Positions 784 through 63,217 of a stretch of DNA of 64,000 nt are shown one piece after another. Made by a program: the position numbers and the translations under genes. This DNA comes from Hydnum rufescens UP504 (taxonomy: Eukaryota; Basidiomycota; Agaricomycetes; Cantharellales; Hydnaceae). Within the stretch, counting starts at the first letter, position 1. Each line of letters begins with the position of its first letter. The stretch covers positions 60,983 through 124,982 of the forward strand of contig MU129038.1 of assembly GCA_014904985.1 (NCBI GenBank), given 5' to 3'. The notes under the pieces are model-generated. The model was not told the origin of the DNA, searched no databases, and saw only the letters and a program-made list of their open reading frames with translations.

Positions 784-3700
784 TCAAACTGAATGGGAGA
801 TAGTGACACAGAGCTGGTCATTGAGGTCAGATTGGTAGGATAGACAGGCACACCAGAATGTGTCACTGGGCACTGTGTTACTGAAGGTTGATGTTGATGG
901 TCTGTACAGGTTTGGATTAGAACCCAGACCCATTGTACTTAAGCCTAAATCGACACTGAGGCCTGAACCTGAACCATCAGAGTTCCAAACACCACCTGGA
1001 CCAACACCAGGGTGCATCGTGGCCACAGGATTTGAACTTGATGTCACCAAACGATCCAAATTCAAAGTCGCTGAAGGTTCCAAATTCAAAGCCATTGAAT
1101 GGTCCAAATTCAAAGTTCCCAAATAATTCAAACTCGAACTCACTGGAGGCTCCAATCTTGAACTTGCTGGAGGATCCAATCTTGACCCCACTGGAGGACC
1201 TGATCTTGCACTTGCTGGAGGATCCAATCTTGAACCCACTGGAGGACCCAATCTTGAACTCGCTGGAGGATCCAATCTTGAACCCACTGGAGGACCCAAT
1301 CTCAAAGTCACTGAATGACTTGAAGTCATGGGAGAATTTGATGCCAAAGCCATTGGGTTATCAGAGTCCAGAGAATCAGAGTCAGATTCATCAATGAAGG
1401 GCTTTGATTGAATGCAAGTAGACCTCACAATGCCCTTGGACTTGGCAGCAGAAGCTGGGGCTTTCTGAGATTTCTGCAAGGTCAGTTTGGGCTGCCTTGT
1501 TGAAGTTGTGGTTGACTTGGATCCAAAGTCTAGCCCTGCATCTTGGACACAGCGGACTGCATTACCATCCCTGTCAATGACCAATGGGACAGCAGTGTCA
1601 TCATCAGCATCATCCTTGCCCCATATTTCAAGCTTAATGGGGCAGCTATTCCCCTTTTGGAACTCAGAAACAAGGAATCTCCACTGTCCACCTTCCCAGC
1701 TCTTGTTGGTGTGGCTTGGATGTGGAGCAGGGCATTCTTCTTCAAGCAGCCACCCAATGAAGCGAATATGATGCTGGCAAAGCAATTTAAGTAATCGGAC
1801 CCAAGGAACAGAAACCAGAAACCAGGCATGGCCATTGGAGATGAACAAGTTCCTCAAATACTTTGAGGTTGTAGAGTAGGCTGAGTCTCTGGTCTTAAGT
1901 TCATGTTCTTGCCATACTTTTTCTGCCTCTTCATGCCACTTCAAAATTCCAGTAGCATCCAGCCGCTCATTCATGAGTTTAACAAACAGCTCCTCAAGAG
2001 ACTTCTTCAGATTAAACTGCTTCTTGGCAAGCTGTTGGATTTCTGAAGATCCAAAAAGGATGCATTCTGTGCATGGGCAGCATATGCATCAGGCCAAGAG
2101 CAAACAATGAATGCAACAACATGGGCATCAAGAGTGGCCATGTGCTGAATTTCACCCATGAGAAGCTTCTTTTTCTGATGGATGTATTTGGCAAGCTTGG
2201 TGCCACTTGTGACTTGGACATCCTTATCCACCTTCAATTGTTGGGCAAGTGATCGCAGGTCATCTAGCCATGCCTCTAGGCAATCGGCGTCCCCATTGAA
2301 CTGTTCTTTCTCCTTGGCATATTTGAGTCGAAGTCCACCTGGAGACACTAAAAAGTGGAAGGGGTTTATCAGCATCAACTAAACCATCACAATAAACACA
2401 GAGTACTAACATTTGGGAAGACCAGCAAGTTTCTGTTTTCGACTATATCCATTGAACAGATTAGGCAGCCACTTGGAGTGGAAAGAGTCACCAAGATTTG
2501 CCAGCCAGAGGACTTGATGCAGTGGGCAGTTATATTTTTTGGCCATTGCTCCCAAAGTGTGATGAAAGGCCTCAGTAACCCCATGCACTCCATCCACCAG
2601 TGCAGTAGGAAAGGGACCCCTATTGTACTGTGGTTGGTGAGGCTGGCCTTCTCTGTCACTGCTCAATCAGGTGTCATCAATGTTGTCATCATCTTCGATG
2701 TCACTAACACCCGCTTCAATATCTGAGCCCAGATCAGCATCTCATGACTCCACTTCATCCTCTGAAATTGCTTCCACTCCCTTGCCCTTGCCATAGGGGA
2801 CCTTGAAGGGTACACCAAGTTGTTTTCTTCAAGTGGACTTCAAAGTTGGCAAGGTGTGTGCATCAGTCGCTGGGAGTTGGATTGATGGCAACACTTGACC
2901 CTTGGGATGATGAATGGGCAGCACAGGAACTGGTGCAGAAGGGTGAGTGCTTGTTATAGTGGGATTCACGGAGGGGTGACTTCCTGACAATGGCAATATG
3001 GACGGTTGGGACTCTGGATTACTTAGGAGGAAGAAGTTAGATCATACAAGATGAACTGAAACCCAATCAAACATACCTTGACTTCTTAAGAGCCTTCACC
3101 AACTTCAGGATTTTGATCTCAAATTGCTCCAGCTTGAGACCGCAAGTGTTGGCAAAGAAGGCCAATCCTTCAATGATGCCAAGAGTGCCACATGGACCCC
3201 ACCTCATCTCTTTAGCAAGACAAGATACATTTATGCCTTGAAAGACATGATTAAGAGTGTGATCAACGAACTCACAGTCTTCACTGGGATCTGCCCCTTG
3301 GTCAGGGAGGGACCAGAGTAGGGTGTCGACCTGGGTAGCATCCCAGACATAGAGAAGATCCCCTGGGCATGCTTCTGGAATGCTAGTAGGCAGATTAAGT
3401 GCCAACATCTGTGCGTCATCAAGCAATTTGCGAGGGTCGCCAATTCATTGTGCTTCATCCAACAGCTGGTCAGGCATATCAGATTCTGGCATAGACCCTC
3501 CATCATCAGAGGAAATGTCCACAACTGAGGATGGTCTGACATGACTGCCAGATAGAAGCACTGTGGGTTCTTCATTGTACCCAAATGTTGAAGATGCACG
3601 TTCAGGTTCAGAGCTTTGGATGGGTAGGAGAGGAGGATTGTTGGGGTAGTCTACCTGACTGGAAGTAGGAGTTCCATTCAGAAGTGATGCTGATCTCCAA

Positions 3701-4059
3701 GACTCATGCTGATATTTGACTTCAGGGATTTTAGGGTGAGATTCAAGTTGGATATATGCCTGATTCTTAGGGGGTTGTGAGGGGGTTGATGTGATGACAT
3801 GAAACTTCTTGTTCCTCTGGTTGCCTCCAGGCAGACACGATTTTTCCTGCCATAGACATCATGTAAGAACAGGAGCAGGGATTCTAAGTAGAGGCATACA
3901 TACCATATTGGCAGTTTCATCATTGACTTCATCATTAGCTTCATCATCTACCTTGCACCTGCCAATATTGATCTGAGGATATGATGGTTCCTGAGATGTC
4001 ACATTCTGCTGTGAATAATAGGTGAGCTCAAACTTGCAAGACAAGAAATCAGGAGACAT
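784..4059 (-). pseudogene. YZ-A: KDZ-associated protein YZ, level-0 copy
   Basis: Function unknown. It is collinear with YZ-K2 (47574-50570). Reading from 4059: a first exon; an intron at 3847-3903 (GTATGT...GGCAG); a Ser/Pro-rich stretch; then a conserved block (3067-3426) with the motif GTLGI-EGLAFF, nearly identical in YZ-K2; an intron with donor at about 3074; an acidic region; a block with VTEAFHH (VTDMFHN in YZ-K2); an intron at 2348-2410 (GTTAGT...TTTTTAG) that restores frame exactly; a charged, probably coiled segment; and a C-terminal domain ending near the motif VIDRDGN (MIDHRGR in YZ-K2). The in-frame stops I found between 2666 and 3460 are all TGA. A one-base slip near 2060 separates the last two blocks. 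The C-terminal tail carries Pro/Ser repeats. It lies downstream of X-A on the same strand, as in K2. Family not recognised. Confidence 0.6.
1143..1310 (-). repeat. 24-bp coding tandem repeat in YZ-A tail
   Basis: About seven copies of a 24-bp unit beginning CTGGAGGATCCAATC on the plus strand. On the minus strand they encode an imperfect eight-residue repeat of the type SRLDPPAS / SRLGPPVG near the C-terminus of YZ-A. YZ-K2 does not have this repeat at the matching place, so it expanded in this copy. Confidence 0.7.
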
Positions 4060-4844: not shown

Positions 4845-7800
4845 TCAGAAAGAGGGTCGGTGCTGAACATGAAGAATCCCACTGGATGAACCATTCTTGG
4901 GACTCCATGGACCCAATGGCTTCATATGGCATTTGCGTGAGGGGTGAGAATACCTGACGGACGCATCTGCCAGAGCAGCCAAATCTTTTGCCTTCTGGGC
5001 AAGCTCATGAACCAAAATATTGTACAGTCCTCCAGTAACATAGAGAGGGACCCAGAATGGCACGATATTGTGGTTAAACTGATCCATGTGGGAATTCATG
5101 ATCATCACTAAATGTCGCCATACCACATGATCAACCTCATCCAGAGCTTCCAACAGCCACTTCATGCTTAAATCCACTCAATCCATAACCTGTGGTGGAG
5201 GATAATCACAATCATGTACAACTGGAGGATAGCGATAGAAGTCCAGGAAGCAATAGTGAATGTAATGCTGTAAGGAGGCGTCTGCACCAGGAGGCAGAGG
5301 AAAGGGGTGTAACTCCCATAGGTCACCAATCTCTCGATGGGGAGGTGCATGCTCCAGTAGGGTGGCAAGATCACTCGGGGATGTCTGGTATGAAAAGGAC
5401 ATCTCAACGTAATTGGGATCCAGCACATATCGAAATGAAAAAACGGCTTCATGCCGACTGACAGGCACTGAAACAGCCTGTTCAAATTCCCACAGCGAAT
5501 AATGACCTGAGACAAATTGCTCAAGAATGAGGTCCCGCCTCCACTGGGATTTAAAGGCCAGCAACACTTTTTGCTTCTTGCATGCCGGGCCTTTTGCTGT
5601 TTTGTTCTTACAAACATGAACCCCGAGAAGACCATCATGCCTCAGCAATTGGAAAATTGCCTTGATGTCTATGTTGGCAGTGACACCAAAGAATTCGATG
5701 TGATACCAATCGCCGACAACAACAAGTGGATTGAGGTCTTCCACTGTTTCCCCAGAAGGCTCAAGACCAACTTCATTTGTACCCCCTTGGTTGTCACAAG
5801 GCGAAAGTAGCGGAGTGATTGGCAATGCTGCTTGAAAGGGGGGATCCACTGGCATATGGTCCTGAGGAGGGGGTACAGCTTGCTGCACATCCTGCATTTT
5901 GGAATTGCCAGGGTCAGGGGGAGACACCACAGGACACACAGGTGTCTCCTGCTCTTGATGGTTGATTTCCATCTCTGGCCCATATTGCTGATTGGGGGGG
6001 GGAATGAGGAGGGGAATGGCGAGGAGGGGATCAGTGAGGGGATCAGCAAGGAGGGGATCAGTGAGGGGATCAGCGAGGAGGGGAACAGCAAGGGGAATGG
6101 CGAGGAGGGGATTGGTGAGAAGGGGAATAGCGAGAAGGGGAATGGCAAGAAGGGGAACTGCAAGAAGGGGAACGGAAGTGATGAGGAGAATGGAAGCGGG
6201 AAGGAGGCAAGCGACATGAGGGGGAACGAGAATGAGACCGACAGGAAGGGCGATGAGGAGATGCCGAATGACAGGGGGAGTAACATGAAGCATGGCAGTA
6301 ATCACCCTGAGAATATCGTTGTGAACCACACTCACAACTGGGTAAGTGACGGCCAGTATCTCGAGGTCGATTCTTCTTATGCGGCATGCTGGCCTTGGAT
6401 TTGAGCATGGCTGGGACCATCTCTGAAGCACATAAGTCTCCAGGGTGGTGTGGTACACCTTACGCTTGCTCTGAGCAGCCAGAACCATCGGACAGATGTG
6501 CTCATGGGCATCTGCATTTCCTGCCAATGCCAGACCCAGGTTGGCAGTGACCTGTGCCCACAGGGGATCTTCATTCTGGGCCTTCTCAATCTGGGCCACA
6601 ATGCATGCCTTTGCAGTGATCTCTGTGTCATTCAAACACAGCTCCTCATCATCTTCAACAGACAGATCAGAATCCAAATCATTCCACTCTGGAAGATTGG
6701 TTGTGGCATCGACCTGAGGGGTTAGATCCTCATGGTCTAGATTGGGGGGGGGGTAGGCTCTTCATCGAGATTGATCTCAGCATCAATAGCAACGAGTTCA
6801 CCTTTTCCTTCCAGTGGCGAGGTCCTATGAGATGGCAGTGGCACCACATGGCAAAGGGTGACTGATGAAGGACTGAGGAGATTAGCGAGTGTTGCAGCCA
6901 TAGCACTGTCCACTTTGTGAAGGCTGGCACCAAACAAACCGTTGAAGATGGACCATATAGACTGATTATTATTGGATATGAAGATCAGATACTGGATGTA
7001 CCAAGGTGATGGATGCTTGACCTCCGCTGCTCAAGACATCTTCCTAATTTCCACAAAATCCCCATGTGGCTCAGTACATTCAGCAACACATTGAGCGGCC
7101 TCCTGGGTCTCTGGGTTGGAAACAGAACTGAAGGAATCTAGAGGATGGACCTCCCTCTCCTCCAAAACCCAAAACCCATGCTAGGGAACACCGTGGCACT
7201 CCAACTCAGCAACTGGGACATCCACATTATCCACGATGAAGAAACAACCGATCAATGAGTGATTGACTCCAAAACAAGGCAGCTCCAAACCACAGACAAA
7301 GGCTATATGATCAAGGGTGCAATGCATGAGAAGTTGTGCGGTTGCAAGCATCTCTGCTTCAGTGTCCTCAATGGCCACAACCTCCTTAGTAATTGCATGC
7401 TTAGAGTAGGATGCCTGGGCAGCTTCCGGTAGTTCTCGATCCCTACTCTTGACCAGAAGCACCACCAAGTCAGAGTGGTGGTTGGGTCGGAAGAGTGACA
7501 TGTCGTTGAGGTCCAAAAGGAAAAACTGCACAGCCTCCAACCACCGGCAGTAACAGTCAAACACAAATATAAGCTTCCCATGCATTTCACTGATCCAGCA
7601 GTTATTGAGGTACCAATCGTGTGTGAGGCGAACTTTGCCAAATGGTAAGAACGGCGTGGTTCAGTGCTGGAGGAGATAGGGACAATGCGGGGCATTGCAA
7701 TTGTAAATGTGCCTCACACACAGCTTGTCAATGAATGACCAGGCCGAATGTGGTTGCTGCCAGGATCGAACATCACAGGGAGACTCAGGCCAATGTCTAT

Positions 7801-8020
7801 GCAGGGTTTCTCCAGGTAGCATGGAGTTAAGGCCAGAAAACAACAGGTTGAAAGGGGGACATGCTGGAATGGTGCCAGGGTTCTCCAACAGTCCCAATAG
7901 TTCCTCAGACATATCCTTCTCCCAAAGGGTATTGGTGTATTTGAGTACCCAGCCTTGGATACTGACAAAACGGTTGTCAGAGATAGGCCATTCACTGATG
8001 GCATCTTTGAAGACCAAGTT
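4845..8020 (-). pseudogene. X-A: KDZ-associated protein X, truncated by K1
   Basis: Function unknown. The 5' end is cut at 8020, where element K1 begins with its terminal repeat. Reading leftwards, the segment at 7660-7720 aligns with X-K2 (PHCPYLLQH against APYRPYIQR). The segment at 7181-7330 carries the family signature CFGVNHSLIG, against HLGIDESLIG in X-K2 and HFGVDDNLIR in X-K1. An acidic region follows, then a Ser/Pro/Arg/His-rich repeat block (6070-6420), and a C-terminal domain with GDWYHIEFF (GVWYVVECK in X-K2). Damage: TGA near 7660, TAG near 7180, TGA near 7035, a slip in the C/G run at about 6747, another frame change near 6400, and TGA at 5178. The SR-like block is read in a different frame from its flanks here, whereas in X-K2 all three lie in one frame. 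A lineage protein of unknown role is the safest description. Confidence 0.6.
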
Positions 8021-8062
8021 CAGGCTGGTCAGCCATATTTGATACCTATGATAGGTATCAAA
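8021..8062. repeat. K1 left terminal repeat with adjacent perfect palindrome
   Basis: Positions 8021-8035 match the K2 terminal repeat at 14 of 15 bases. Directly inside it, 8038-8049 and 8051-8062 are perfect 12-bp inverted arms (TTTGATACCTAT) around a single G. K2 has no such palindrome at the same place. It may be a transposase or host-protein binding site; that is inference. Confidence 0.7.
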
Positions 8063-8159
8063 TCTCGGGCACTATTTGGTACTTAAGTAGGTCTAATAGT
8101 GATGGGGTGCCATAGGGGTGCCAATCAATAATTCAATATTGGAGAATCATTGGAATCAG

Positions 8160-8290
8160 CCCCAATGGGGCTCCAATAGGGCATATGGGGCCCCATTATG
8201 GTTCAATGGGGCCCTATTATGGCCCCAAAATGAGCCTTCCTCACGGCTTCATCTTTTTGCATCACCCAAATGGGGCCCCATTATGCAACT
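8160..8290. repeat. K1 subterminal GGGGCCCC motif cluster
   Basis: The eight-base palindrome GGGGCCCC occurs at 8187-8194 and 8272-8279, the first in GGGGCCCCATTATG and the second in GGGGCCCCATTATGC; a one-off version with CTATTATGG lies around 8208-8220. K2 has TTGGGCCCAA copies in the same position relative to its end. The stretch 8063-8392 holds no gene. Confidence 0.6.
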
Positions 8291-8392
8291 TGAGAACATT
8301 TTGTTGGCCAGGCACAATAGTATATTGGGGGTATCTCCAGCATCTAAGTCTAAGGGGCTAACTAATAGTACATTTGTGACCAGTGTGCTAGG

Positions 8393-11300
8393 TTAATCCT
8401 CATGTCCCAGAACCAGATCAAGGGAGGTTAGGAATGTGAGGTCCTCTGCCTCAGGTCCTTCTTCCAACTCCCCATTTTCATCATCATCAGAACTTGCTTC
8501 TTCAGCCTCTTCTTCCCCAGGTGATAAAACTTCCTCAGCCTGGGCTCTACCTTGTCGGCAGACCCATGCCCTCTGTAATGGAGGCAGTTGGTCTGGAATG
8601 TTTCCCCAGTCCACCCACCCATCCCTACCAAGAAGTCCTGCTGTGTGATGTTTCCAGTTGTTGACCAGGTCATGCAAGTGATGTAACTCCATTAAGACAA
8701 AGAATTTGACATCTTCATCTGTCCACATCCCCAGAGTTGTTAGTTTACATTCAGTCAAGTTGGAAGGAACCCCTACCATTGCAAAAATCAAAGGCATGCT
8801 GGGTAGCAGCATACTGCTTTGTGAACCAGCAACATAGATTGGAGAGTTCAGCTTTGCAGCACCTAAGCTCCTCTTGGCAGTTTGCCAGCTCCTGGGCATG
8901 TCGGATGCCCTCACGGACTTCTTTGTCTGCAAGCCAAGCAGGGACCCTCCCATCTGGAAAATTTGCCATGTCCTCATGATGAGGCACTTGCCAAATATCT
9001 TCATCCACATCCAACTTATAAACAGATGATGAAATTTCTGGAGGGATATATGCATCCCTTGCAACATTCCCTTTTCCTCTAAGTTTCATCATCTGCTGTC
9101 GGATATCCTCATATCACTTCAGTGTTGCTTGAATCCAAGAGACTCGACCCTTCATTGCCTTCTCCACATGCTCCTTAGTCTTGTGATCCAGCTGGTGACT
9201 TGTGTCAGCATGCTCCAGCCCAACAAGCTCAAATTTACATGTGCAAAGCTTCATCAGGAGCTGGTCCCTCACAACCCGGACATTCAGCTGGAGGTTTATC
9301 CACTTGTTGGTCTTTAACCGCTCCAACTCCTTGTGGGACTTCTGATCCAAGAGATGAAGTTCCTGGGTCTTTCTTGAAATATTACTCTCAAGGCGCTGCA
9401 CACTAGCCTGTATCTCTGTAATATTCAACTGTAGCTCATCCTCCACTGCAATTGTCACATTATCAGTTGCAAGACCTGCAAGCTCGTCCATAAGTTCCTT
9501 CAGATGCACCCGGAGTGAGTCTGCAGACTGGGACATAGACAGGATGTGTTCTATTGCACGGGATCCCTTTGTCTTTGACTGGCGAGGGACTAGTCTGCTT
9601 TGAAAAGAGCACTGTTCCTTGAACTGGCCCAAGAGATACTGGACTGAGGCCCCATCCAGTTTCTCCTGAGCCTGAGCCTCACGTCCTACAGTGCGCGACA
9701 CATGATCACAGAGCCATTTCCCTGCACCCTCTTGCTTGAGCTCATCTATATGCTTGACTTGAAGATCAATTATGAAGAGATGGCGATGGTACTAGCAAGA
9801 GATTGACCATCAGTCTATCTCATCAACTTAGCTTAGCAAGTGAATGTACATACACCAGTGACCCTTAGACCAGGAATAAGTCATCTGAGCTCACTCCAGA
9901 ACCTCTCACACCCCTCACCATCAGACAGACCCCATTTTTCTGACTTCCGGGGGTGATACCACAGTTGGCAAGTCCATTGATGGCCATAAGCATGGAAAAC
10001 AGAGACACCAAACTCAATCCGTCCCATCCATTCAGGCATGATGTTCCACTTAAGGAGACTATGATGGATTTGACATGCAATATCATACAACAGCCTGACT
10101 GTCCAATCCTTAGGTAGATCTTTGAGGAGTGCCGAGATCAGAGCAAAGGCATAGAACTGTTTTTCACCAGCAGTATGCATATTGGCAATGTAGATTGGAC
10201 TATCATGCCGACATAGCATAGCCATTAGCCATGTGTCATCAAAGTGCTGAGTGGAAGCCTTGATGCGATCACCATCAGCTGCAATGAATGAGTCGCCACA
10301 GGTGTCAAGAACAGAATTTGGAATATTCATTCCTGGTTCAATGGAATCATCATCACATGGCCTGTTTCTATCATCCTCCACTGACTCATCTGCCTTTTGC
10401 TTCCTGCCTGCTCCAGCTGGACTCTTTGTTGGTTGAACCTCATTGATCCTGGCAGCCATATCATCAAGGTCTGCCTGCAGAAGCTCGACTGTCCTTGGAG
10501 AGAATATCTCTGGGTCCCAGGCACCTGTCTGACCCTCAAAGCCTTTTCTCTAGTCTTTGTCATGGTTGCATTTGAGTTGAAAGTTTGCATCTATGCAAAC
10601 AATGACAGTGGCCTGAAGATCAGCCGCATGCCTCCCTCCGAAGCAAAGAGCACAGCGTGATTGCAAGTATGTGCTTGGACACTCCAGGGCACCATCAACT
10701 TTAGTAGGCCCGGTGAAATTGTGTGCATTCAGATATACTCAAGCTGGGATTGAGGTTTTTTCATTGAGTGCAGGGGTAGGAGGGTGATCAGAGGACAGAG
10801 TGGAGTTCAATGATTCACGAAAAGAATTGATGATTTTTGTCATCTCTGCCTTCACCAGTCTAACAAGAACTTGATAGTGGGTGAGAGCATTGGCAAATCG
10901 TCCATGAAGGGAATCCCCAGTTGCAAATTCATGGCCACGAGCCTTTAGATATTTCGTAAGGGTTGCTGCCCAGGCTCATTCATTAGGTGCCATATTTACA
11001 AAGAGATCTGATACAAACTCCAACATATCCATGCTCACAGCCAAAGTCAGAGCCAATGGAGAGCATGGGAACAATCCCTGGCTCACAAGCTGGATTGCTG
11101 CAGGGCAATGAGAGCAAACAACCAAATCAATGTCCTCCAAATATTCCATATGCACACAAACAATCTTCAGTATGTGATGACGCTGCGAACACATACAGGG
11201 TTCTATGGAATCAACCTGGGCCCCAGTGTTCCATTCTCTTTGAAACCTCATAAAAGGACGAATCAGTGACGGGAGGACATCGTCACCCCACCAACGAGCC

Positions 11301-11587
11301 TGTGCGTGTTTCCGCCATGCATGATGAGATAGTTTGTCTTGGACAACACATACATTGGCCTCAGGTGCCATTTCCAGCTCGAAATTGATGTCTAAGTGGT
11401 GGGATTCGATAAATGTTGATTGCTCAGTCACTTCGACGGCAGGAAGATTGGATGTTTGCTGGTTTGACAGTGTAGTAATTACTCCATTTGGCCCTGAGCC
11501 TACAACTTCAGCGATTGGATATTTGGAATGCCATCGTTTGGGATGAAGAGTAGATGAAGAAGAATTGGCAGAGATCTGGGAAGACAA
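8393..11587 (-). pseudogene. KDZ-A: KDZ transposase with CxC1 cysteine cluster
   Basis: DNA transposase of the Kyakuja-Dileera-Zisupton superfamily; would cut and paste K1. From 11587: Ser-rich start; CxC1-like cluster (CMC...CSHC...GLFPCSP, about 11000-11220); a variable linker; the catalytic core at 9881-10459 with ADGDRIKAS, LYDIACQ, HAYGHQW-CQLWYHPRK and GLSDGEGCERFWSELR; a long coiled-coil region (9114-9701); and an acidic C-terminus. Two introns are visible: 9792-9853, and 8719-8776, which contains a CTAAC branch site and restores frame exactly. Broken by TGA at 10976, about 10738, 9881 and 9114 and by TAG at about 10552 (CAG in KDZ-B). The start was chosen because KDZ-B begins with the same MS...YP-AEVV pattern. 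It lies next to the K1 left end and diverges from the GRF gene. Confidence 0.9.
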
Positions 11588-11773
11588 TGCAGAGGGAGTA
11601 GAACTTGTTCATTGACGAATCAATCATTTTACAGTCAAGTTCATTTTGGATTACTGGCACAATTCCGGGCAGTGAAGCATGAGTAGAATGGGACACAAAT
11701 AGGTGGGCCGTGGTGCAGAACCTTCGTTAGTGCTGGCAAACACAGGGTGTTAAAAAGTGTAGACAACACACAA

Positions 11774-12394
11774 CATGGGCAGGCCATGATCAGTGAGTTG
11801 GGATTGGAGTAAGAGCACAGAACAAGGAGTGCCCAATGCAGGCAGACTGCAATCAGCAAGTTGGTTTGGGGTAAGAACACAGAGGAGGGTGCCCAATGCA
11901 GGCAGACTGTGATCAGCAAGTTGGTTTGGGGTAAGAACACAGAGAGAGGAGGGTGCCCAACGCAGGCAGGCCACGATCAGCAAGTTGGTTCAGAGTAAGA
12001 ACACAGAGGGAGGAGGGTGCCCAACACAGGCAGACTGCGATCAGCAAGTTGGTTTGGAGTAGGAACACAGAGGGAGGGTGCCCAACGCAGGCAGGCCGCA
12101 ATCAGCAAGTTGGTTTGGAGCAAGAACACAGAACAAGGAGGGTCCCCAAAGCAGACAGGCTACAATCAGTGAGTTGGTTTGGAGTGAGAGCACAGAACAA
12201 GGATGGTGCCCAATGCAGGCAGGCCGTGATCAGCACACTGGTTTGGAGTAAGAACACAGAACAAGGTGAGTGCCCAACACAGGCAGGCTGTGATCAGCAA
12301 GTTGATTTGGAGTAAGAAGGCAGAATGAGAACTTTGAGAAGGGTGCCCAACACAGGCAGACTGCAATCAGCGAGTTGATTTGGAGTGAGAATGC
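11774..12394. repeat. Minisatellite 1 in K1, about 10 units of 60-76 bp
   Basis: Direct repeats of a unit containing CAGGCAGACTGCGATCAGC followed by AAGTTGGTTTGGAGTAAGAA and CACAGA. Units vary in the spacer, so open frames run through the array by chance. It lies between the divergent KDZ-A and GRF genes. The same unit recurs at 14752-14942 and 57511-57744. Confidence 0.85.
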
Positions 12395-12548
12395 AGATGC
12401 GTAGTGTTGATTTGTAATTTGGATCCATCACCGTGTTCGACTCGGAGGTCACCGAACTCTCTTTGTTCTCACCTCAGTTGAGTCGATAGTACTACCTGGC
12501 CTGCCTGAGTTGTGCCATCAACCGAATGAGTCCATTGTACAAACTGAA

Positions 12549-15490: not shown

Positions 15491-15491
15491 C

Positions 15492-50570: not shown

Positions 50571-50687
50571 CTTGTAGCTATCATTGATTTGTTGTAGTAT
50601 ATAATACATATAATATGGATTTGTCAACAGTAGTCCTGGCTGATCTGGGCGAGTATGATGAGGATGATGCTGCCAAGTCCCTAAGGA

Positions 50688-50761: not shown

Positions 50762-50831
50762 TTGGGTTCTTATGGGCTTGGGCCTTCTTAGGTAGAAAAA
50801 ATGCCTCATTTTTCGGCCTAAGGTAGGTGAA

Positions 50832-50851
50832 AAAAGTGGCAGACCAAGGTG
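50832..50851 (-). repeat. K2 right terminal inverted repeat
   Basis: On the minus strand: CACCTTGGTCTGCCACTTTT. It is followed outside by CTCTCATC (50852-50859), the right copy of the target duplication. Confidence 0.88.
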
Positions 50852-50935
50852 CTCTCATCTCTCCCAAAGTCTGAAAGCCTCTATGTCACTTGAATTTTTT
50901 CTTAAGACTGACCTCGCCTGGTGATGTGGACTTGT

Positions 50936-51010
50936 CAAAAAAAAAAAAAAAAAAAAAAACAATCAAAATCAAAGAAAAACAATCAAAATCAAAGAAAAAC
51001 AACAAGTCAA
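50936..51010. repeat. A-run and AATCAAAG-type simple repeat
   Basis: A run of about 22 A followed by repeats of CAATCAAAATCAAAGAAAAA. It lies in the right half of G2 just outside K2. It may be ordinary simple sequence. Confidence 0.7.
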
Positions 51011-53166
51011 AAGAAAAACAAAAGAAACAAAGTCATAGTCCATATAAAAACAAAAAATTCCACAAGTCCGTAACAACAAAACCACACTAATTAGGAGACT
51101 CGCAACTTAACCGGTAAACAAAAACAACAGTCAATTAATCAGAAATTCGCCGAAACCGAACCCGAACCAAGTGCCCTGAAAATCCAAAGGTCCCCTCAAG
51201 TCTAGACCATCTCAAATCCATTCATAAAAAGCACTTCTCACATAAAATCCTCTTTCCCCATCCCATCCACTGACTCTAAAAAGAATGTATGTCAAAAACA
51301 ATGTGACTCGTATAAATGCTTACCTAAAAAGGGGTAGGACACCATCGAATATGCCTACCAACATACTCACCAATGGCATTTCTGAGACTCACACGGAACT
51401 CCCATCCAACCTCAACGACATATACATTCTGGACGATGTGACAGGATTCATGGTTTTCTTCATACAGCACGTCAGGGACTGGAACGATCCAATTCTCAAT
51501 CTCCACATCGGACGAAGGGGTTACTTTTGCCCCAACACAACAACTGCAGTCCAAACATATACGATCGCCTGCCTCGAATCATATTGCGTAACCTGAGAAT
51601 ACACTGATGACTCCGATTTTCATGTAAAGGTGCAGATAAGAACGGCCGTATATGGGAATGTTGACACAGACACGGTCCACCTTCCTACATTCACCCATCA
51701 CCCTCCTGAATAAACCACCATCATCATCGTTGAATCACCTCTAAATAAAAAATAAAAAATAAAAAAAGATCTTCCTCTATCACGAAAATGCCAGGCAAAT
51801 GAAAAACACCATAAATGGAAAAGGAGAACATAAACAGCGGGTATGGTCACGTGTCAAAACCGAATAACTGGATACAAAAGTCATCGAAAAACGCGGACCA
51901 AACACCTTCATCCATGATTCTAAAAACTCCCACTACAACCTTGAAAAGCCATGAGTTCAACCAGTATGTAAACACCGTGGTCATTAAGGACGTTCATTAA
52001 ACATTCAGGAACTCAGGCGATATCGAGAACTCAGGTGATAATTTGAATTCGATGGATCAAATTCCTCTCTCATGTCAGGACTTTCAAACATTGGGAGAAA
52101 CTGAAATCGGCCTTGGAGTGTTAGTAACCAACTGTGACTCACACTACCTGGCACTATGTGTAGGGGAATTTGGTGTATTCTATCCTGATATCGAAAACGA
52201 CACCAATCACTTCTATTATGCCTACTTGAGCCAAACCCAAACCAAGGACCTCAGCTCAGATGGTCACCTTCTCATTCGAATCCACCTCATCCTCGTAGTA
52301 TTTGGCGAAATGGATGATGAGTGCCCATACCCATACTTCACCCATGCAACCCCCATCGTCGTTTGATCCTTTACAAAAATAAAACACCACCTCTGCCTGT
52401 GCCCTGATGACATTGACGTATGAGAAGATGACAGTGAAATATGAAGCGACCCTGCCAATCAATGAAGGAATCTGAATCCATGGAAAGCCTAAGCAAAATT
52501 AAAATGGACACATGATCAATTGGTCTACGGATGCAAAAGTGACATAAAAGCAAATCGAACGACTATCCTCAAGGCACGAATCAAAAGGTGTTCACCATGC
52601 CATTGGAACTTCACATGATTGTATATCGGCAATTCGATTACCCATACCCTGAACCATTCACTCATCTCAAACCCCACACGATTATCCGCTATTATCCAAA
52701 TCCCCAAGTCGCATTCGATGGCATTATAAAGACAAAAAGAGTCGACTGGACAATGTACGAGTTCGGAGAACCGCATAACAATCGACCCACGATACGCCAT
52801 GATCTCGAAATTGAATTTGTCCTTCTCCTCCGCGTTCCAGAAAACACCACTGTACCTCGTCGAACCTTCTCCATGGATGCTCTTGACCTCCACCCTAACG
52901 ATATCATTCAAAGTGGGTATTCACTTAAAAATCCTAGGACAATACAAAGGAAAAACTATTAAAAATGCAGATATTAAAGACCCCTACCCAACAATAAGCG
53001 ACTTCTATCACCAAATTCGAAGCATAAACTCACAGGAAATCTTGCTTTGGTTCAAAGGATGGACATGGTGGTTCTACACAAGGAGGCACGATCAGATCTC
53101 AATTGTATAACTGTGGAAAAAGGCAAACGACATTGCAAGGGGCTGCAATTAAAAGTGTTCACCATC
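51011..53166. other. Right internal part of G2, weakly coding
   Basis: Several plus-strand open frames of 60-125 codons (51285-51596, 52043-52366, 52588-52962, 52799-53110) without stops in common or motifs I recognise. They could be remains of a further G2 gene broken by frameshifts; codon use is AT-leaning like gag-RT and unlike the integrase. I do not support any single one as a gene. No clear polypurine tract precedes the 3' LTR. Confidence 0.35.
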
Positions 53167-54849
53167 TGTGGAAGATAAAAACATCCAGTATCAGAAAATG
53201 CGAAATCACACCACTTCCAGCCATTGGAGGATCACATGACTAATTACGAAACTAATTACGGCTATGCGCGAAAATCAAATTTGTTCTATAACTCCGTCAG
53301 TTTTGATCGGAAAGGTACGCCCATATAACTCTTAGAAAGCTACGATTCACACCTTTCGAACAGTACCAAACACAAGTCGAACGGACCAAAACAGCACTCT
53401 CCAGGCCAATTTTACTACCAAAATCTGGGATTTCCAGTAAAAAACGAATTTCTCCATAAGTTCGCATTCAATCCTCTCGGAACAACCGCGCCTAGAAAGA
53501 TATAAAAAGTCCGCATCCGACGGTACCGAGCACGCGAAGAACAGATCAAAACTGAACTCTACAGAGCAATATTACTATCAGAATCAACACCCATCAGTAA
53601 AAAACGAATTTCTCTGTCAGTTTACACCAGATCTTCTCGGAATTACCGCGCCCAGAAAGCTGTGAAAAATTCGCATCTAATGATACCAAGAACGTCTATT
53701 ACGGATGCAAACTGCTGTTTCTGCATCGAATCCCATCCTATGCACTTGTCCCCATTATCAACCAACAACAAAACACCTTAACCACTGGACTATGCTCAAA
53801 TTAATCTCCAAAACCCGGAGATATCCTTTCATTTCGCCTCCAGAATGCTCCACATGGTCAGTGACCACATGCTCCAAGCATTCCACATGCTCAGCAAATT
53901 GGTGACATCACCCCCCCTCATGATTCCTTTTGTTCTCTTTATGAATGACATCACTATGACATCACTCCTCATGATTTCTTTTGTTCTCTTTATGAATGAC
54001 TCAGCTATGACCGCATTATTACATCATCTTGTTATTTTTCTTTTGTTCTCACATATGACTCACATATGACTCACCCATGGGGGAGTCATATTTCTTAAAC
54101 ACAGCCACCTTCAGAAAGGTATAAAAGCTGGTAGATTTCCTGTCCCCCTACACAATCATCTCCTCTCTGGAAATCATTACTGTCAACCACTGTCAACTTT
54201 TCTGCTTGCCTCTAAAGAACAGTCTATCTATAAGCCATCTGGAGCTAAGTCATCTTCAAGGTTGTTGAGACAAAGCCACTGGTAGCCCTCTATGCAAATC
54301 ACTAAAGCCAAGGATAGTTGCAGGACCTAAGGTTAGAGTTGCTGGACATCCAAGGAAAAGTAAGCATAACGAAATACGTATCAGGTTCTGAAGAAAGAAG
54401 AAAGAAACATACTAACAAAGACTAACCAAGCACTGACCAGTCTATAACCCACAGATATCCGCATTTTGACCAGGAGAACGTAAACAAGAATACACAAATA
54501 TCAGTAAACAGACCAACACAACACGAACAATGTATAAGCCTTTCCACAAGCATCCCAGACATATAAGCCTTTCTATAAGCATCCCACACGATGTATAAGC
54601 CTTTTTATAAGCATCCCACACAACATATAAGCCTTCCTACAAGCATCCCAAATGACATATCATTGACTACAGCTAGTCCATATCCCTTCCTATTCTCCAC
54701 TAAACACCATACACGTCTTGCAGAGTGTGATCAACCATTGAAGCAAACCAGCCCAACGAATAACAACAGAAATACAGTCTCCCATCTACACACTGGCTGA
54801 ACCAGATTTTGATTTGACAGTCATCGGAGCTCCCAACCCTTCTTCTATA
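53167..54849 (+). repeat. G2 3' LTR (1,683 bp)
   Basis: Matches 23932-25610 throughout; about 2% difference by eye plus a few single-base indels (for example C8 against C7 near 24680 / 53910). Followed by the CCGC duplication. TATAAAAG at 54120-54127. Confidence 0.95.
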
Positions 54850-56960
54850 CCGCAAGCCATGTCCAATACTTGCAAGCATCAGGCTCAATCGTCTTGACTA
54901 ACATGATGAAGCTCGAGACTGCCACCAAGGAAAACGCCCTCACTCTGCCTTCATCACGGGACCCTGACTGGCACTTCAGGCAATTGTGGTCTACCCTATT
55001 AGGACAGGCCGTTCAGCTGGCCCCTCCTTGGAAGATTGTGCAGATTGCACAGGAGCTACGCCGACAGCTCATGGACAGTCTTGGATTCCTGACCCTAGGA
55101 ATTTGATTCCTTCTATACTTCAGACTATACCGGGGACGATTCAGCCCCCCGACCTTCTGCTCGACAGTACACCAAACAGGGCTAATGGTCAGGGCCAGCA
55201 ACACCCACTCGAAATTCATTGGCAAAAGCCTGGCCGAGTTGGGAGTGCCAGTGTGGACAGTCCATGAGGCTAACTCCCAGCCGCTGGTAGAGCTCTTCCC
55301 CCAGGGTTTGGCAGAGGAATCACCCCTCTGGGCCTGAGCCCGAGCCCATGCTGAAGAGTGTTTCCCTTCGTGCCGATTCGGGGAAGGATTCACATGGGAG
55401 AAGACACGGGTACAATTCCATAGGGAGCTGAGCCGGGCTATCGCAGCACAGGAGGTGCTGAGCCCAGTGGATGTTTGGGTGGTGTGCCCAGGGCATGCCA
55501 CTGAAGCGCCAGTGCTGGGCCCTTATCACCGCCTCCATGGAGCCAACTACAGGTGGCCGAGGGGAGAAAGTGGTGAGGTCTACGTAGCACAAATGGTCCG
55601 CTGGCTGATGAGCACCAGGGAACCCAACGCTATGGCGGTCCTCCGGGAGATGCAGGAGGTACTAGGAAAGGAAACTGTTTCACTCAAGGGGCTCATGGAT
55701 AGGAAACGCTACGAGCCTCCATTACCACTATTCCATGAGAACTACGAGACTTGCAAGAAATGGGCCAAACAAAACCAAGGGAACTGGATCATTCCCCCAA
55801 CATTCCCAGCCTTCCTCCATACTGCCCCTCTGTGTCAATGATTAGTGGACCCATATGCCTGCCCTTATGGGGCTCCACCAGACCTGCTGGAATGTATGGA
55901 ATTGGACCCCCTATACCCTTCGGCCCCGTGAAACACATCACGCCCTCCTCCTCCACCAATCCCAACGGCGTCTACAGTAGAGGACCCCCCATCTTTCGAG
56001 GACATGAATCCTCCACCTTTCAAGGACTTCTCAGCGCCCCAGGAGCCTCCGGAGGAAGCCCCATCACCGTCCATGGGGGAGTCAGGCTCATCAACTGTGG
56101 GAACCAAAGCCAATTGGGATGAAGAGTGCATCCGCACAGGAATCTTTCTGGTACACTTGGCCCCTTTCCTCTACTTCGGGTCCGAAGATGAACTGGAACG
56201 TGAACTATTCGAGAAATACAGCCCCTTTGTACACTCGTGGCTCCGCCTCCTACGTACAACTATTATCGCCTACAAGGATCATGACCGGGCCCTCCTAGCC
56301 GTTCAGAATCAACGAGCGGCTTTCCTCCAATACCCCACTGAACCCTCCACCACGGGAATACACCCCAGCGTGATTCCTGGCACCCTGCAAGAATTCAGCC
56401 CCAGAGCGAAGGCCGAAGTCATGCAAAAAATACAAGTAAGAGGCAGGGAACGCCTTGAGAGTTTCCCGATTCCCCTCGGTCCAGAAGGGCACCCCTCGCA
56501 TCCCATTCCCCACTTTCAGTGGGAAGAGATGGTCCTCTTGTTACACAGGGTGACAAGTCTCCCACCCAGGGTGCAGGGCTCTAGCTCTCGCCTAATGTCA
56601 TGATACACACTCTCGCTGGCCTTCCTCGTAGGACAGGTGCAGCAATTACAGGCCCTAGGGCTGGCATCTCCGACCTCGCAGCGCCATCAAGCCTCAGACC
56701 TGGAGGCCCTACTTCGTAAGCACCTCTCCTACGTCTCCCCTCTAGGCTTCTCGGTCCCTTTGGACCCCAACAGCATCTTCCATGAGCTGCTGGCTTCTGC
56801 CACCCATGCCTCCCCCCGGGTCTCTCCTACATCGCTACTGGCTTGCGGCATGTACGATACGGAATACTTCAGATGGGTGGGCGCGAGGGAAATCTATGAG
56901 ATCATATTGGACGAGATATTGGCAGACTAGAGGTCACGCATTGTATATACAGGGGGGCAC

Positions 56961-57510
56961 TGTAGTATAGTGATTATGTAATCATAATGTACATACGTTG
57001 CGCGACTACAGGGAGCTGCCGCGGCGAGCCTGCGGCTTCTCCCATTGAATTCTATGTTGTTTTTACTCCCAGTGCGAGTCAAAGTAACATGCCATTCATA
57101 GGAATGTGAGAATACGAGAGCCAAGCAGTGAGTACTCACTATCGGCTAAGCTACTAACAAATCACCATTCCAGGTAACCCTCTGCCTTCTTCTGTCACCC
57201 ATCCACTCCACTTCCATGTGAGGCCAGGCCAAATGGGAAGTGAGATTACTACCTAGCCAGGCTAGGTAGGATCTTCGAGTTGGTCGAACTAAGGACATGC
57301 TACAAAGCATGTCCCTTGCTACACCCTTCTCGAACTTGCACACGACCACGCTCATTCGAGCCGCCCATATCGCCTGCCTTGCCTATTTCCCTTGTATCCT
57401 ACCTCCTTGCTTTCCCCTATCGTATCTCCCTACACGCTTCCCTAGGCTACGTGTTCAACTACCCTCAGTTCATGACAGTTTACTCGTCCAATTCATAGTA
57501 CTTTATTACA
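56961..57510 (+). repeat. G1 3' LTR (550 bp)
   Basis: Matches 14943-15490. Preceded by a short purine tract (AGGGGGG, 56951-56957) that may be the second-strand primer. Followed by AGAAG, the target duplication. Confidence 0.95.
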
Positions 57511-57744
57511 AGAAGAGGGTGCCCAATGCAGGCAGACTGTGATCAGCGAGTTGGTTTGGAGTAAGAACACAGAAAGAAGAGGGTGCCCAATGCAGGCAGA
57601 CTGCGATCAGCAAGTTGGTTTGGAGTAAGAACACAGAAAGAAGAGGGTGCCCAACGCAGGCAGACTGCGATCAGCAAGTTGGTTTGGAGTAGGAATACAG
57701 AAAGAATGTGCCCAACACAGGCAGGCTGTGATCAGCAAGTTAGG
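57511..57744. repeat. Minisatellite 2, right part, after G1
   Basis: Four further ~63-bp units continuing the array of 14752-14942. The first base block AGAAG is the second copy of the G1 duplication. Joined across G1 the array has about seven units. Confidence 0.85.
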
Positions 57745-60228
57745 TTGGATATGAGCTCCGCAAGATAATTTGGTTCCGTGACGGTCAGGTCTGAGACTGA
57801 CTCAACTGAATTGAGCCAAGTCAACTACAATCAATACATTGGGGCTGTTTTTTGCCACAGGATGAAAGAGAATGGATTCAAATAGGGTCTTTCACAATAG
57901 CAAAAACAAATGTCAAAACGGTACCAAAGACTACTCAAAATAAATACAGTTGGTCTCCAAAATGGTGCTTTGAGGTTCGTTTTGGGCTCTATCGTGAAAC
58001 ACCCTAATGATAGAAGTCGATAAGTCTGAGGCAAGGAGTGGTGTGATGACAGCACCATGAGGCTTTCTTTTTAAAAGTTCTGAAAAGGACTCGAGTCTTC
58101 AGAGGATCCCCGTCACTCAGGTTGATAGCCTACACACTCTCACTGGGAAACTTTTGAGATTTTTGAGACCCACCTAGCATGGTTTCCTGGGAGTTTGGAG
58201 GCCAAAATCGGCAGCACAAAGAACAATTTCACTGGGAGGCAGCTCATGGGGCTAAAGTACATAGCATGCAGATGCCGGGTGTTTGGTGCATGTGGTGGTG
58301 TACTTGAGGACTCCCCTATGGGGTGAAGGTTCAAGTACACCTCTGTACCATTTTTACTCACAGGGACAGGGGTCGGTCACAAGTCACTTACGATGTCACA
58401 CATTTTTAGCTGCATATTAATGGTGCATGTGGCCCACATCTTTACATTACTATGAAAAACTTGAATTAAATACCATCATTGGCACTGTCGCTGTTGCTTT
58501 CATTTGCATCATACTCCGACCCTCCGTGTTCAGCGTTAGAATTTTGTGGGTCTTCAACCTCATCTTATAAGCGGAGACAGCTTTTTCAGCTCAGCCAGCC
58601 ACAAGTCCAGAGCCTGAATGTTGACTGAATCCAAAAACAGAAAATAGGGGTAGACATCAAGGAAGCCATTGCAGGACCAAGAATCCGGTCAGATCTATAT
58701 GAAATCAATTGCCCCATGTGGGGTTGTTAACTTGATGTTTAATGAAGGCATGTATTACACAGGCTTGCATGATAATACAGACCGTGTCCGTTTCTTCTGC
58801 CACATGGACTGCATCCATTTCTTCTGCCACACGGATCATGTCCATTCTGTAGCCACCATGTCTGGTGTGCGAGACACTCCATGCAGATAGTCTCTCGCAT
58901 AAAGGCTGTCCACCTCCTGACTCAGTCATACTTGAGGTGGCAGAGTCACTGCAGAGTCTCTAGTATGAGGGACCATGGGCTAGGTTACCACAGGATGCGA
59001 AGGCCATGGGTATATAAGTACAGGATCTCCTTGCTACTTTCTCCCTATTCTTTTTTCTGCATCCTGCCCAATTTTTCTCTCATGCACAGGGTGATATTTG
59101 CTAGAGATATGTGTGCACCGCCGTCTGATCCTTCAAACACACAAGTAGCTAATGTAGGGCCACCCCCTATAGTGGGGGACCTTGGGAAGACTACAATTAT
59201 GTAACTCGGCAGTGAGCGCAACGACGTCGTTGGCATTCTCTCAAGGTCTCGATTACATAATTCAGCAATTGGTGCAGTTTGCCAACAGTTTGAGTGAGTC
59301 CCCATACAACTAGCTCCTGTGACATCAGTGGAGACGCATAAGCAAGAATTCATTGTTTCACTGTATTATTAATGAGGCAGTGATGCCTGGATAAGGGAGA
59401 AGACTGTATTAGGGTACCTAATGAGGTGATTATACATAATGAAGGATGGCTAGGGTATGTAGTGAGTGGTCCTGGACTTTACCTCAGCATATGCCAGTAA
59501 AGGGAGGTCTGGCGGCAAGTAGTCATTCAGCAAGTGGCATGCCCGCACCAGGAGCTCAGACCTTGTGGCACGTAGAAGCTCTATCGGACGTGGTGGTGTC
59601 ATTTGAGATGCTCCACCACCACGTGAACGTGGGTCCCCATCCCAGCCGATGGAAGATGTTATCATGGGGTGACTGTATTCTCCAATGTCACGTCCATGTC
59701 TGATCGTCTATCTCTCTGCTGCCCTATGATTCTTACCATTATCATTGCACTGATGGGATGAGCATTGTCAATTTTTTTGGTCGACGAAGCCATGTTATTG
59801 CATCCATTTTGCATTGAATTCACATTCAGCTGCTGCTTCGTTTGAATACATTCATACCTAGACATTGACTTGTCCCATTGAAATTTGCCAAGTACTCTGG
59901 GGCCTTGGAACATTAATTGAGTGTGTTTAATCCTGTCTTGCATAGTACAAGTGTATATCCCATCATACTCGCAACACCCAATCTCAGTCCACATTCTGCA
60001 ACACACTGAAGGCCAAGATTCCGGGTGTTGCCAGATGCACTGGTGTTGAGTCACTACTACTACAACCCCAACCCCAACAGGTGTGCATGTTTCATAGCTG
60101 AGAGACTGCACGTCCAAGTACCCCTTGGAGTGTGTGGTCTCTGGGTGAACCATGATTGATACCCTTTTTTCCCTAGTGTTGTCTCCATTGCAAGGAGACA
60201 TAGCGCCTTGGTAGATCCCAAGGTGATT
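57745..60228. other. No recognised gene (K1, between minisatellite and W')
   Basis: Open frames on both strands are short (up to 179 codons on the minus strand, 59662-60201) and show no motif or match to genes of K2. TATATAAG near 59010 is the only promoter-like site noted. This may be degraded K1 sequence or the remains of a small element. Confidence 0.3.
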
Positions 60229-61284
60229 ATGGCCCCCAATGCCAACAAGAAAAAGGCTGGAACCAAGGCAAAGGTGTCAGGTCCAAGCAAGTCCGATGAG
60301 CATGGGCAAGACATTCTTTATTCTCGATACAATTCCCATGGTGCATATGGCTTTTTCACCCCGTGCGTGGGTCGACCTCCCATTATACACTTGGGAGATT
60401 GGAATGTGATATCTGGCTGTTTTTTGCCATCATATTGGAGTGCCCCTGACTGCAATTTGGTGGCATGATAAAGTAAGTCTTTACAACTGAGAGAATTTAT
60501 TGACCCCACTAATATCATCAACATCAGCACTCAGGCTACATGCTGGAGACCGAGTGCAATGACGCGATGTCAAAGATTGGGTTCTACTCGGTCAAGGACA
60601 TGACCAGAGATGGTCTCGATGTGTCGACTTCCTTTGCCTTGGTCCATGTCCTACTAAGCACGTTCACATCTGAGGCCAATGCCATATCAGCTGGTAAGAC
60701 CAATTCATGATCTAATTGTCCATCGCTAACTTGTCGTATCCATAGGTTTCGACAAAGCTCCTGCCATGTTCTGTAATGGCTCGTCCCCCACAAAAGACGT
60801 CATGTCATCTCAAACAGTTTCGTATGCTGACACCCTCCACGATTTCCCTGAGGGCGTGTATGTCCCTTCTCCACTTCCTCCATATTTTGACCATCCATTC
60901 CTTCTGCATAAATGGTACGTGATGCCTTCCTCATTGTTTATTGCCCCCCCTGTCTCCTCAACCATTGGCTCCTCTGCCGCCAGTTCCTCTGCCATCGGTG
61001 TAAAGCGCACCCTTCCTCCGCTTCTGCGATTCACGAAAAGGCAGAGAACGGAAGGGATTGTTGCTGAGGGTGGGGACATCATGATGGAGGATGGAGGCAA
61101 TGTTTCCGTTCCTGCCGTTGATGGGGATGGTGATGTTGTGATGCAGGATGGGGCTAGTGTAGCAGCCACCACTCCGAGCAGTGGGGCTGCCACGCATAGC
61201 TCGCATGTACGCTTCCTCCTGGGTCGCCCAATTCTCGGCACCTGTCAGATGTGGATAGGATCATTGAAGAAACATCTTCCTTGA
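60229..61284 (+). pseudogene. W': unrecognised gene upstream of X in K1
   Basis: Function unknown. It starts MAPNANKKKAGTKAKVSG at 60229. The first exon needs a one-base frame change near 60445 to reach SAPLTAIWWHDK and a donor GTAAGT at about 60472; the acceptor is CATCAACATCAG near 60527. Exon 2 has SKIGFYSVKDMTRDGL. A clear intron follows (GTAAGACC...ATCCATAG, about 60694-60745), then exon 3 with LHDFPEGVYVPSPLPPYFDHP, a Ser-rich linker and an acidic Asp/Gly/Met repeat (61060-61160), ending at TGA 61282. It lies where K2 has W, but on the opposite strand; I cannot show that the two are related. Confidence 0.5.
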
Positions 61285-61597
61285 GTGCACCATTTTGCCT
61301 TGTCGAATCTCCTTTCTCCATCATTGCTGTTTGTTGTTCTCCATCATCACTGTGCATTGTTCTCCTTTGTCGTTTCTCATCGCTCTCCATCACTTTCCAT
61401 CACTCTTCATCAGCCCCCCTCCTCTGTTGTTATTCAACCTGTCTTTTTTTTTTTTTGCTGTCCTATAATTTTTGTAACCCTCTCTAATGTGCATATTATC
61501 GGCATGTGTGCCATTCGGCCTAAGCTGAGAACCCCCAGCAGAGAGTGCCGTGGATTCAGAGGTCTATATGAGGTCCTAGAAGCCCACCACCTATGAC

Positions 61598-63217
61598 ATG
61601 CGTGTCATTGCTACTAGCACAATGAGGGGCTACATTCAGAATCAACTGCACCTGAGGGACTTTGGGTCTCAAGGAGAGTTCTCACCCGCCAGTGCCGACG
61701 TGGTGGTGGGTGAAAACCCCAAGACCTTGCATCAACCTCTGACATGGGCTGACCAGAAAGGGAATACTGAGCCTGCACCGCCCACTCCTCTGGCAAATCC
61801 ATATATGGGTGTCAAAGATTATGATACGTGGTCCAATCAGTGTGAGAACAGTAAGCCGACATCGTGGACCTTGCCTAGGTAATCAGGCAAATTTTCTCAT
61901 ATCTCAATGTAGAGTTCCTTAAAGACATGGATGAATACAAAGTAGACCCTACAACAAAGCCATTCCCAGTTGTGAAACGAGTGGAGTGGGCAACATTATT
62001 CATGAACAGTCGCCAGCCATTCCAATACACTGAGCAGTGTCCTCCCGAATGCAAGCCTGATATCTATACCCGGGACCAAGCGTCTATCACTCGCCACTGG
62101 GATAAATATGGTGCCCCTCATTTCTATTCGACCAATTATATGAGACTCCCCACAATGTATTCGACACAGATGCCCTACATCAGTTACATCTCACATCATA
62201 TCGATGATCCCCCTCTCCCAGCTTCACTCGATATGATCTCATCCTCTGATGGTGTCAAACTCACCAATGTGTACCATAAACAACTGGAGGATTTTGTTCT
62301 GAGGAACCGTGAATGGTACAGGAAATGGTGTCTCGCAGCCTCGAACTTGGGAATCCAGGTTTCTCTTGCCACTCTCATCATGCCAGTGAAACCCCAGTCA
62401 CTTGGCGAGTCCCCATTTTCGGTCCATCTCTTGTCGCAGTCGATGCCGGATGAGCTTGCAATGACTCAACTGGCGAGTGATTATCTGCACTGTGCATATG
62501 AATATGGTGCTTTTGCCCAGATGACCATGCACTGGTGTATCAACCACATTTCCATGGTCGGTAAAACAGACCGTCCTCATTTTGGTGTTGATGATAATCT
62601 AATCAGGGCGTTGTATCTCCATTCAAACCTGGGAGTCTGGCTTGATGATCTCCAAGCGCACAGGGTGCCATTGTGGGGCCTTTGGTTTGATGATGCAGGG
62701 ATTGATATTAAGAGTATGCAGCATTTGACTGGGAAGGAAATTTCCCAAGAAGAGCTCGATCTGATTCCGAAGGAGAAAGGCAATGACATTCACTATCACA
62801 CGGTTTCAGAGCAGCTCATTGTAGAGTCTGATTGCCGAGTCCCTGGTTCATTGTGCTGAGGTCCTATCCTGGGGTACCACCTCACAAAGCCCTGGAAGAC
62901 ATTGTTCTCAACACACTCTTTCTTCAGTATCAGCCACGGCCTCCTGAAGAAATGTGTCAGTCTCTTCGAAACATTGTTTGGGGATGGACCATTCTTGCCC
63001 CCTTCTCATTATGCATCATCTTCAGCTGCCCACTTTCAGAGGGAGTCACCTGTGACATGGATGAGGTGCTGGAAGCTGAACCTGGTTCGGTCCTGATAAT
63101 GACAAAGAGGAGGCTGCTCAAGAAGAGGAAGATGCCTTGGATCAATCTATTCAACTGAGGCGAGGCGAGTCGAATGAGGACTTTGAAGCATGGCGCGAGG
63201 TTGAAATGGAGATTTAG
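61598..63217 (+). pseudogene. X-K1: KDZ-associated protein X, K1 copy
   Basis: Third copy of X. The first exon 61598-61879 (GYIQNQLHLRDFG...) is followed by a probable intron (GTAATC...CAATGTAG, about 61881-61913) and the main part from DMDEYKVDPTTKPF. Family marks: VEWATLFMNSRQPFQY (EWSLIYTNSRRQFQF in X-K2), LHCAYEYGAFAQMTMHWCINH and HFGVDDNLIRALYLHS. TGA at 62857 is read through in the same frame into LFGDGPFLPPSH (matching the ILGSRQFPPSA region of X-K2); then stops and a frame change near 63095 lead to SIQLRRGESNEDFEAW, the counterpart of LAQRSGESDSAFEKR. The SR-rich part is not reached in recognisable form before the window ends. Confidence 0.62.

Follow-up and report, generated by a model that had tools for sequence, protein, structure and literature searches.

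Mushroom genomes are rich in KDZ (Kyakuja-Dileera-Zisupton) and related DNA transposons (PMC8290104, PMC7550596), which the available texts characterise by a transposase and sometimes a TET/JBP gene. In Cryptococcus, KDZ1 is about 11 kb long, with 241-bp terminal inverted repeats and 8-bp duplications, while KDZ2/3 measure 9.2-10 kb with duplications of 4-8 bp (PMC12810828). Kyakuja elements have CA..TG ends and duplications of 7 bp, those of Zisupton measure 8 bp, and Nuwa families with a Myb/SANT protein are also described (PMC12730594). Here we analysed a window of 64,000 nucleotides (C130:60983-124982) from the genome of Hydnum rufescens (63.2 Mb, 539 contigs), an ectomycorrhizal species in the Cantharellales that was sequenced as such (PMC7550596). 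KDZ transposase genes in this window are accompanied by three further genes, GRF-CC, X and YZ, which we take, with a probability of roughly 0.88, to be integral genes of a large four-gene KDZ DNA transposon family. Four-gene elements whose accessory proteins belong to the element are also very probably the best overall explanation of the data. The first-pass annotation had called these genes cargo, a word that is too weak, as they behave as the element's own.

The only element in the window that displays the full set (KDZ, GRF-CC, X and YZ) is K2, a single KDZ element of 16,254 bp with a perfect 8-bp target duplication on both flanks.

34598..50851, no strand: K2, complete KDZ element; ends CAGGCTGGTCTGCCAC.. 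and ..GTGGCAGACCAAGGTG; flanks CTCTCATC; inverted arms 34603-34670 and 50779-50846
34886..39056, minus: KDZ transposase gene, several exons, divergent; from open reading frames (ORFs) and homology to the K1 KDZ
39264..39780, no strand: tandem array, 172 bp x 3.0, in the KDZ/GRF-CC interval; repeat analysis
39953..40674, plus: GRF-CC gene, coding for a coiled coil and, over two exons, a GRF-like zinc finger; reading frames, and genome copies upstream of X
43323..46918, plus: X gene, with N-terminal core, RS-rich stretch (45272-45958) and C-terminal domain (~46064-46297); ORF, comparison and model
47574..50570, plus: YZ gene, three exons (47574-48406, 48478-49105, 49131-50570); spliced reading, six internal stops, all TGA

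The end sequences of K2 are CAGGCTGGTCTG and, on the opposite strand, CACCTTGGTCTG, and the inverted repeat is short and imperfect. From the left end, the KDZ gene points outward and is followed by the tandem array, then by GRF-CC, X and YZ on the opposite strand, and by the right end. The X open frame of K2 has 1099 amino acids (aa; 43619-46918), and its first exon was placed by comparison with P0001. A second element, C26:371373-395868, encloses KDZ, X, Y and Z within a perfect 8-bp duplication, GACTCACC, and, given its size of 24.5 kb, presumably carries inserts. The duplications of both elements flank the unit as a whole. Of the two elements outside the window with both ends examined, C26 and the C19 pair of ends, the latter has no target duplication.

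The three copies of X (A, K2, K1) and the two each of YZ (A, K2) and GRF-CC (K1, K2) reported in the first-pass annotation were confirmed by BLASTP and reading frames. X lies at ~8020-5178 on the minus strand in A, and on the plus strand at 43323-46918 in K2 and 61879-63217 in K1; the 43619 and 61879 ORFs are 26% identical over 240 aa (E 2.6e-22), and the X-A piece 7184-7660 matches them with E 3.9e-4 and 1.5e-6, respectively. Y is found at 47799-48410(+) and 3444-3070(-), with 37% identity over 121 aa (E 5e-16), and Z is downstream of it in both copies (~49131-50570(+) and ~2900-784(-)); under a spliced reading Y and Z form the single gene YZ, which contains basic runs like nuclear signals. 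The order claimed in the first-pass annotation also holds, as GRF-CC, X, YZ, wherever it is visible, with the refinement that the KDZ gene of K2 points away from the other three.

Both GRF-CC copies show, by eye, the finger motif CHCA(E/D)xP .. GR.F(W/F)RC .. C.FW followed by a coiled coil; with the GRF zinc finger profile (PF06839), the spliced K1 finger scored 14.5 bits against a cut-off of 25.9 (E 0.039), and K2 gave no match. The RS stretch of the K2 X protein holds 36 RS/SR dipeptides in 229 aa, compared with a mean of 20.5 and a highest value of 35 in 2000 shuffles. Its C-terminal domain has no Pfam match and is modelled as beta-alpha-beta-beta-alpha-beta, with a pLDDT of 48-74 over residues 11-90; the best structural matches of this model are PII-like and other ferredoxin-like folds, with RNA-recognition motifs (RRMs) among the other matches. 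The tested pieces of X and YZ matched no Pfam family over the cut-off. The KDZ domain (PF18758) scored 171.4 bits in K1, at C130:70836-71591, and 189.6 bits in an element on C1 (cut-off 26.6). The CxC cluster remained below the cut-off, with 25.3 bits for CxC1 in K1 (cut-off 26.9, E 1.8e-5) and 22.5 for CxC2 in C1 (cut-off 27), and none was found in the single K2 KDZ exon searched.

The same arrangement recurs across the genome, where X loci number about 180 after merging and fall into three families. Y is downstream of the X of its own family, on the same strand, in 45/45 cases within 12 kb (family 1, 17/17 having X within that distance, of 28 Y; A-type, 28/28, of 53 Y), and A-type Y is followed by Z on the same strand in 45/46 (of 69 Z). 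GRF is upstream of X, on the X strand, at seven of ten places, representing six distinct X. This gene order is kept across diverged families, as X-Y-Z in families 1 and 3 and as X-Z in family 2. In addition, 40 places match the final 120 bp of K2; at 24 of these, Z is upstream on the strand of the match and no more than 6 kb away, the distance being 411-613 bp in 21 cases.

X is also associated with KDZ. Within 15 kb of a listed KDZ domain we found 50/135 X loci, compared with 18/150 reverse-transcriptase controls (Fisher 5.7e-7, about threefold), and the orientation was divergent for 32 of these 50 X loci and for 4 of the 18 controls. With KDZ classes set by the extent of the Pfam match, X1 pairs with the short class (8/8, seven distinct KDZ) and X3 with the full 217 class (7/7), while X2 is mixed (7 short, 7 at 214-215, 12 full); the X1 versus X3 difference has p 1.6e-4 by pairs and 6e-4 by distinct KDZ. 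The first-pass annotation had named X lying mostly far from KDZ transposases as something that would refute its reading, and a point that weighs against ours is that in this genome 61/180 X loci have a listed KDZ domain no more than 15 kb away. The list of 150 KDZ domains is, however, a lower bound, with 150 of 584 first-look candidates scored and K2's own KDZ absent from it; the proximity counts are affected by many short contigs and many broken copies, and X remains enriched relative to the controls.

The genome holds 602 copies of the left-end motif CAGGCTGGTCWGYCA, against 0 for a reversed-pattern control. These copies far exceed the listed KDZ domains, so that shorter or decayed relatives are probably common. 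Among 100 of these places listed, several are within 0.5 kb of one another, and such closely spaced copies may be small non-autonomous relatives.

The C1 element (C1:285453 onward) is a diverged X2 element with an intact KDZ frame of 981 aa, an intact X frame of 526 aa and a 324-bp x 5.9 array between them; it had no Y in the genome-wide Y-search listing and no GRF, and its right end was not found. Its relative on C26 has an X identical over 526 aa and is internally rearranged, with the KDZ segment inverted. This pair (L069-L074) points to activity as well as rearrangement in the recent past. Between KDZ and X of the C1 element lies a further frame, of about 200 aa and on the strand of KDZ, that has no Pfam match (L070:139-783) and loosely resembles, by eye, a frame at window 60730-61284, just upstream of the K1 X and on its strand; it is possibly an additional gene of the element.

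Between subfamilies, the ratio of nonsynonymous to synonymous change (dN/dS) is 0.05-0.2 over 15 copies of Y and 0.22-0.37 over 12 copies of X, values that are rough, with synonymous sites near saturation, but clearly below 1; three more remote Y copies were saturated and gave no dN/dS. Within family 1, Y has a dN/dS of 0.69-1.8 (11 copies), and in close X copies the differences are spread equally over codon positions (143, 131, 132), with C>T/G>A making up 305/406. The KDZ gene shows a third-position excess relative to the C1 frame in 8/9 comparisons, the exception being the 97%-identical one. X and Y are under purifying selection between subfamilies: dead copies drift while the jumping lineages are conserved. 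Decay within families together with conservation between subfamilies is the pattern expected of genes that the element needs. The long-standing partnership with the transposase proposed in the first-pass annotation is supported by this selection, by the two elements with duplicated flanks, by KDZ proximity and by the pairing of two of the three X families with KDZ classes. The stops in broken copies are nearly all TGA (6/6 in YZ-K2; 29/31 in the listed Y copies, by eye), which, with the C>T/G>A bias, points to deamination of methylated CpG or a process like repeat-induced point mutation in H. rufescens.

The other two copies in the window, K1 and A, are incomplete.

8021..14942, no strand: left portion of K1, with its end CAGGCTGGTCAG at 8021, end type as in K2
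8393..11608, minus: K1 KDZ transposase gene with CxC-like cluster; PF18758 over cut-off
11788..12391, no strand: K1 tandem array, 64 bp x 9.4, in the KDZ/GRF-CC interval; repeat analysis
12549..13121, plus: K1 GRF-CC gene; reading frames, Pfam Zn_ribbon_GRF below cut-off
14943..57510, no strand: long terminal repeat (LTR) retrotransposon inside K1, outside the cassette; LTRs 14943-15490 and 56961-57510, 93% alike; 5-bp duplication AGAAG
57511..63217, plus: K1 resumed beyond the LTR retrotransposon, with 64-bp repeats (57511-57749) and the X gene (61879-63217)
5178..8020, minus: copy A X gene; open frame abuts the K1 left end at 8020/8021; relatives found elsewhere
784..3444, minus: copy A YZ; homology to K2 YZ

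K1 has a second stretch of 64-bp repeats at 14748-14942, which resumes at 57511-57749, and its X is 48 kb away from its GRF-CC because the 42.6-kb LTR retrotransposon inserted in these repeats. A right end of K1 was not found in the sequence examined, where the expected duplication ACCAAGTT also has no partner, and a YZ gene belonging to K1 could not be recognised either in the window or in the 9 kb that follow. A direct repeat, 23931-25610 / 53166-54849 (97.8%), encloses another gag-pol and K2, and the nesting in the window is probably five deep. Copy A is the remains of a third, older element on the minus strand (8020-784), with no KDZ or GRF-CC visible in the window. The first-pass annotation had placed every copy next to a KDZ transposase or KDZ ends; this is correct for K2, but the KDZ beside copy A is that of K1 and not part of A, the K1 left end at 8021 abutting the X-A frame. 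From 8020 into the main X-A frame the reading is open except for one stop and gives W.L.YTN, like other X near their start, which suggests that K1 probably inserted against or within the X gene of A, interrupting it. The observed/expected CpG values (A 0.25, K1 0.28, K2 0.69, C1 0.82) fit a nesting order with A oldest and K2 youngest.

Some of these observations could be explained if X and YZ were passengers, that is, host genes that a KDZ element acquired on a single occasion and has since transported without being helped by them. The absence of Pfam families over the cut-off in the tested pieces would agree with such an origin, and capture of TET/JBP genes is known in other fungal transposons (PMC12730594). 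We nevertheless consider it improbable, as diverged families retain the gene order and dN/dS between subfamilies is 0.05-0.37 despite the decay of single copies. Moreover, relatives sought in the protein database, where the candidates with most words in common were scored, numbered 13 for X, and the six named ones share one organism label, Hydnum rufescens UP504. The two elements with duplicated flanks, the collinearity and the selection therefore indicate that X and YZ are integral transposon genes and not passenger cargo. Still less credible is that separate elements repeatedly inserted side by side, so that the cassette would be a chance product of regions rich in transposons. Nesting in the window is strong, with A, K1 and K2 as separate insertions, but the whole set lies within perfect 8-bp duplications in two elements, its spacing and strand are regular across dozens of copies, and the reverse-transcriptase control shows neither enrichment nor divergent bias (18/150; 4 divergent).

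A further explanation concerns what the genes would do: X, YZ and GRF-CC could form a sequence-specific anti-silencing system like Arabidopsis VANC, in the place that TET/JBP occupies in other fungal KDZ elements. In three elements, family-specific arrays lie between KDZ and X (172 bp x 3.0, 64 bp x 9.4, 324 bp x 5.9), and tandem repeats specific to a family are also what VANC targets, including upstream of VANA (PMC5735166). The CpG depletion of A and K1 relative to K2 and C1, the mostly C>T/G>A differences of X, and a genome without TET/JBP over the cut-off in an exon-wise search would agree with this proposal. The comparison with VANC covers the repeat layout, and tandem repeats have other causes; we regard the proposal as possible but less likely than not.

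KDZ proteins are cut-and-paste transposases, and in the four-gene element that we favour the KDZ protein would cut and paste the element. GRF-CC, with its zinc finger and coiled coil, and YZ, with its basic runs, would bind DNA, either at the ends or at the central repeats, while X, with an RS-rich stretch and a ferredoxin-like domain, would be a nuclear nucleic-acid-binding protein. The three may be accessory proteins that the element needs either to assemble the transposition complex or to be expressed where the host mutates, and probably methylates, transposons. If the genes are integral, a transposition/DNA-binding role has about an even chance; an anti-silencing role is somewhat less likely, and any other role rather unlikely. 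An element of this kind makes the needs of an autonomous KDZ element testable, and likewise a protein-based escape from silencing in fungal transposons other than TET/JBP. At least six 'hypothetical proteins' of the H. rufescens annotation are identified as transposon genes.

Some DNA transposons work with a second protein that binds DNA, among them En/Spm (TnpA, TnpD) and Harbinger (transposase and Myb-like protein), which are superfamilies other than KDZ and have other accessory proteins. VANDAL21/Hiun belong to the Mutator superfamily. The Arabidopsis VANDAL21/Hiun elements (VANA, VANB, VANC) combine a transposase with accessory genes and have family-specific repeats near the transposase gene, as here (PMC5735166). 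Anti-silencing was demonstrated there, whereas the Hydnum set compares by its tandem-repeat layout only. It is conceivable, though unlikely, that the KDZ lineage of this hedgehog mushroom replaced or forwent TET/JBP and has its own three-protein anti-silencing or targeting system acting on fast-changing central-promoter repeats; if true, this would be a fungal counterpart to plant VANDAL/VANC that arose independently.

The four-gene layout was not found in the KDZ literature that could be searched, and the available main text of Kojima 2025 (PMC12730594) does not mention Hydnum. In the TET+ Kyakuja/Zisupton elements of that study the extra gene adjoins the transposase, as in the Hydnum elements, but the Hydnum extra genes are not TET/JBP; an exon-by-exon search of the whole genome gave one TET/JBP match, of 24.0 bits, below the cut-off of 34.9. 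K1 and C1 (by profile) and K2 (by homology) carry the KDZ transposase PF18758, as KDZ elements do, and the inverted ends and short 7-8 bp duplications of these elements are also seen in K2 and C26 (8 bp, perfect). For the Cryptococcus KDZ elements, the available text names a transposase carrying the KDZ and CxC1 domains and no other gene (PMC12810828). Compared with KDZ1-3 of Cryptococcus, K2 is 16.3 kb long, has short imperfect inverted ends and carries three additional conserved genes.

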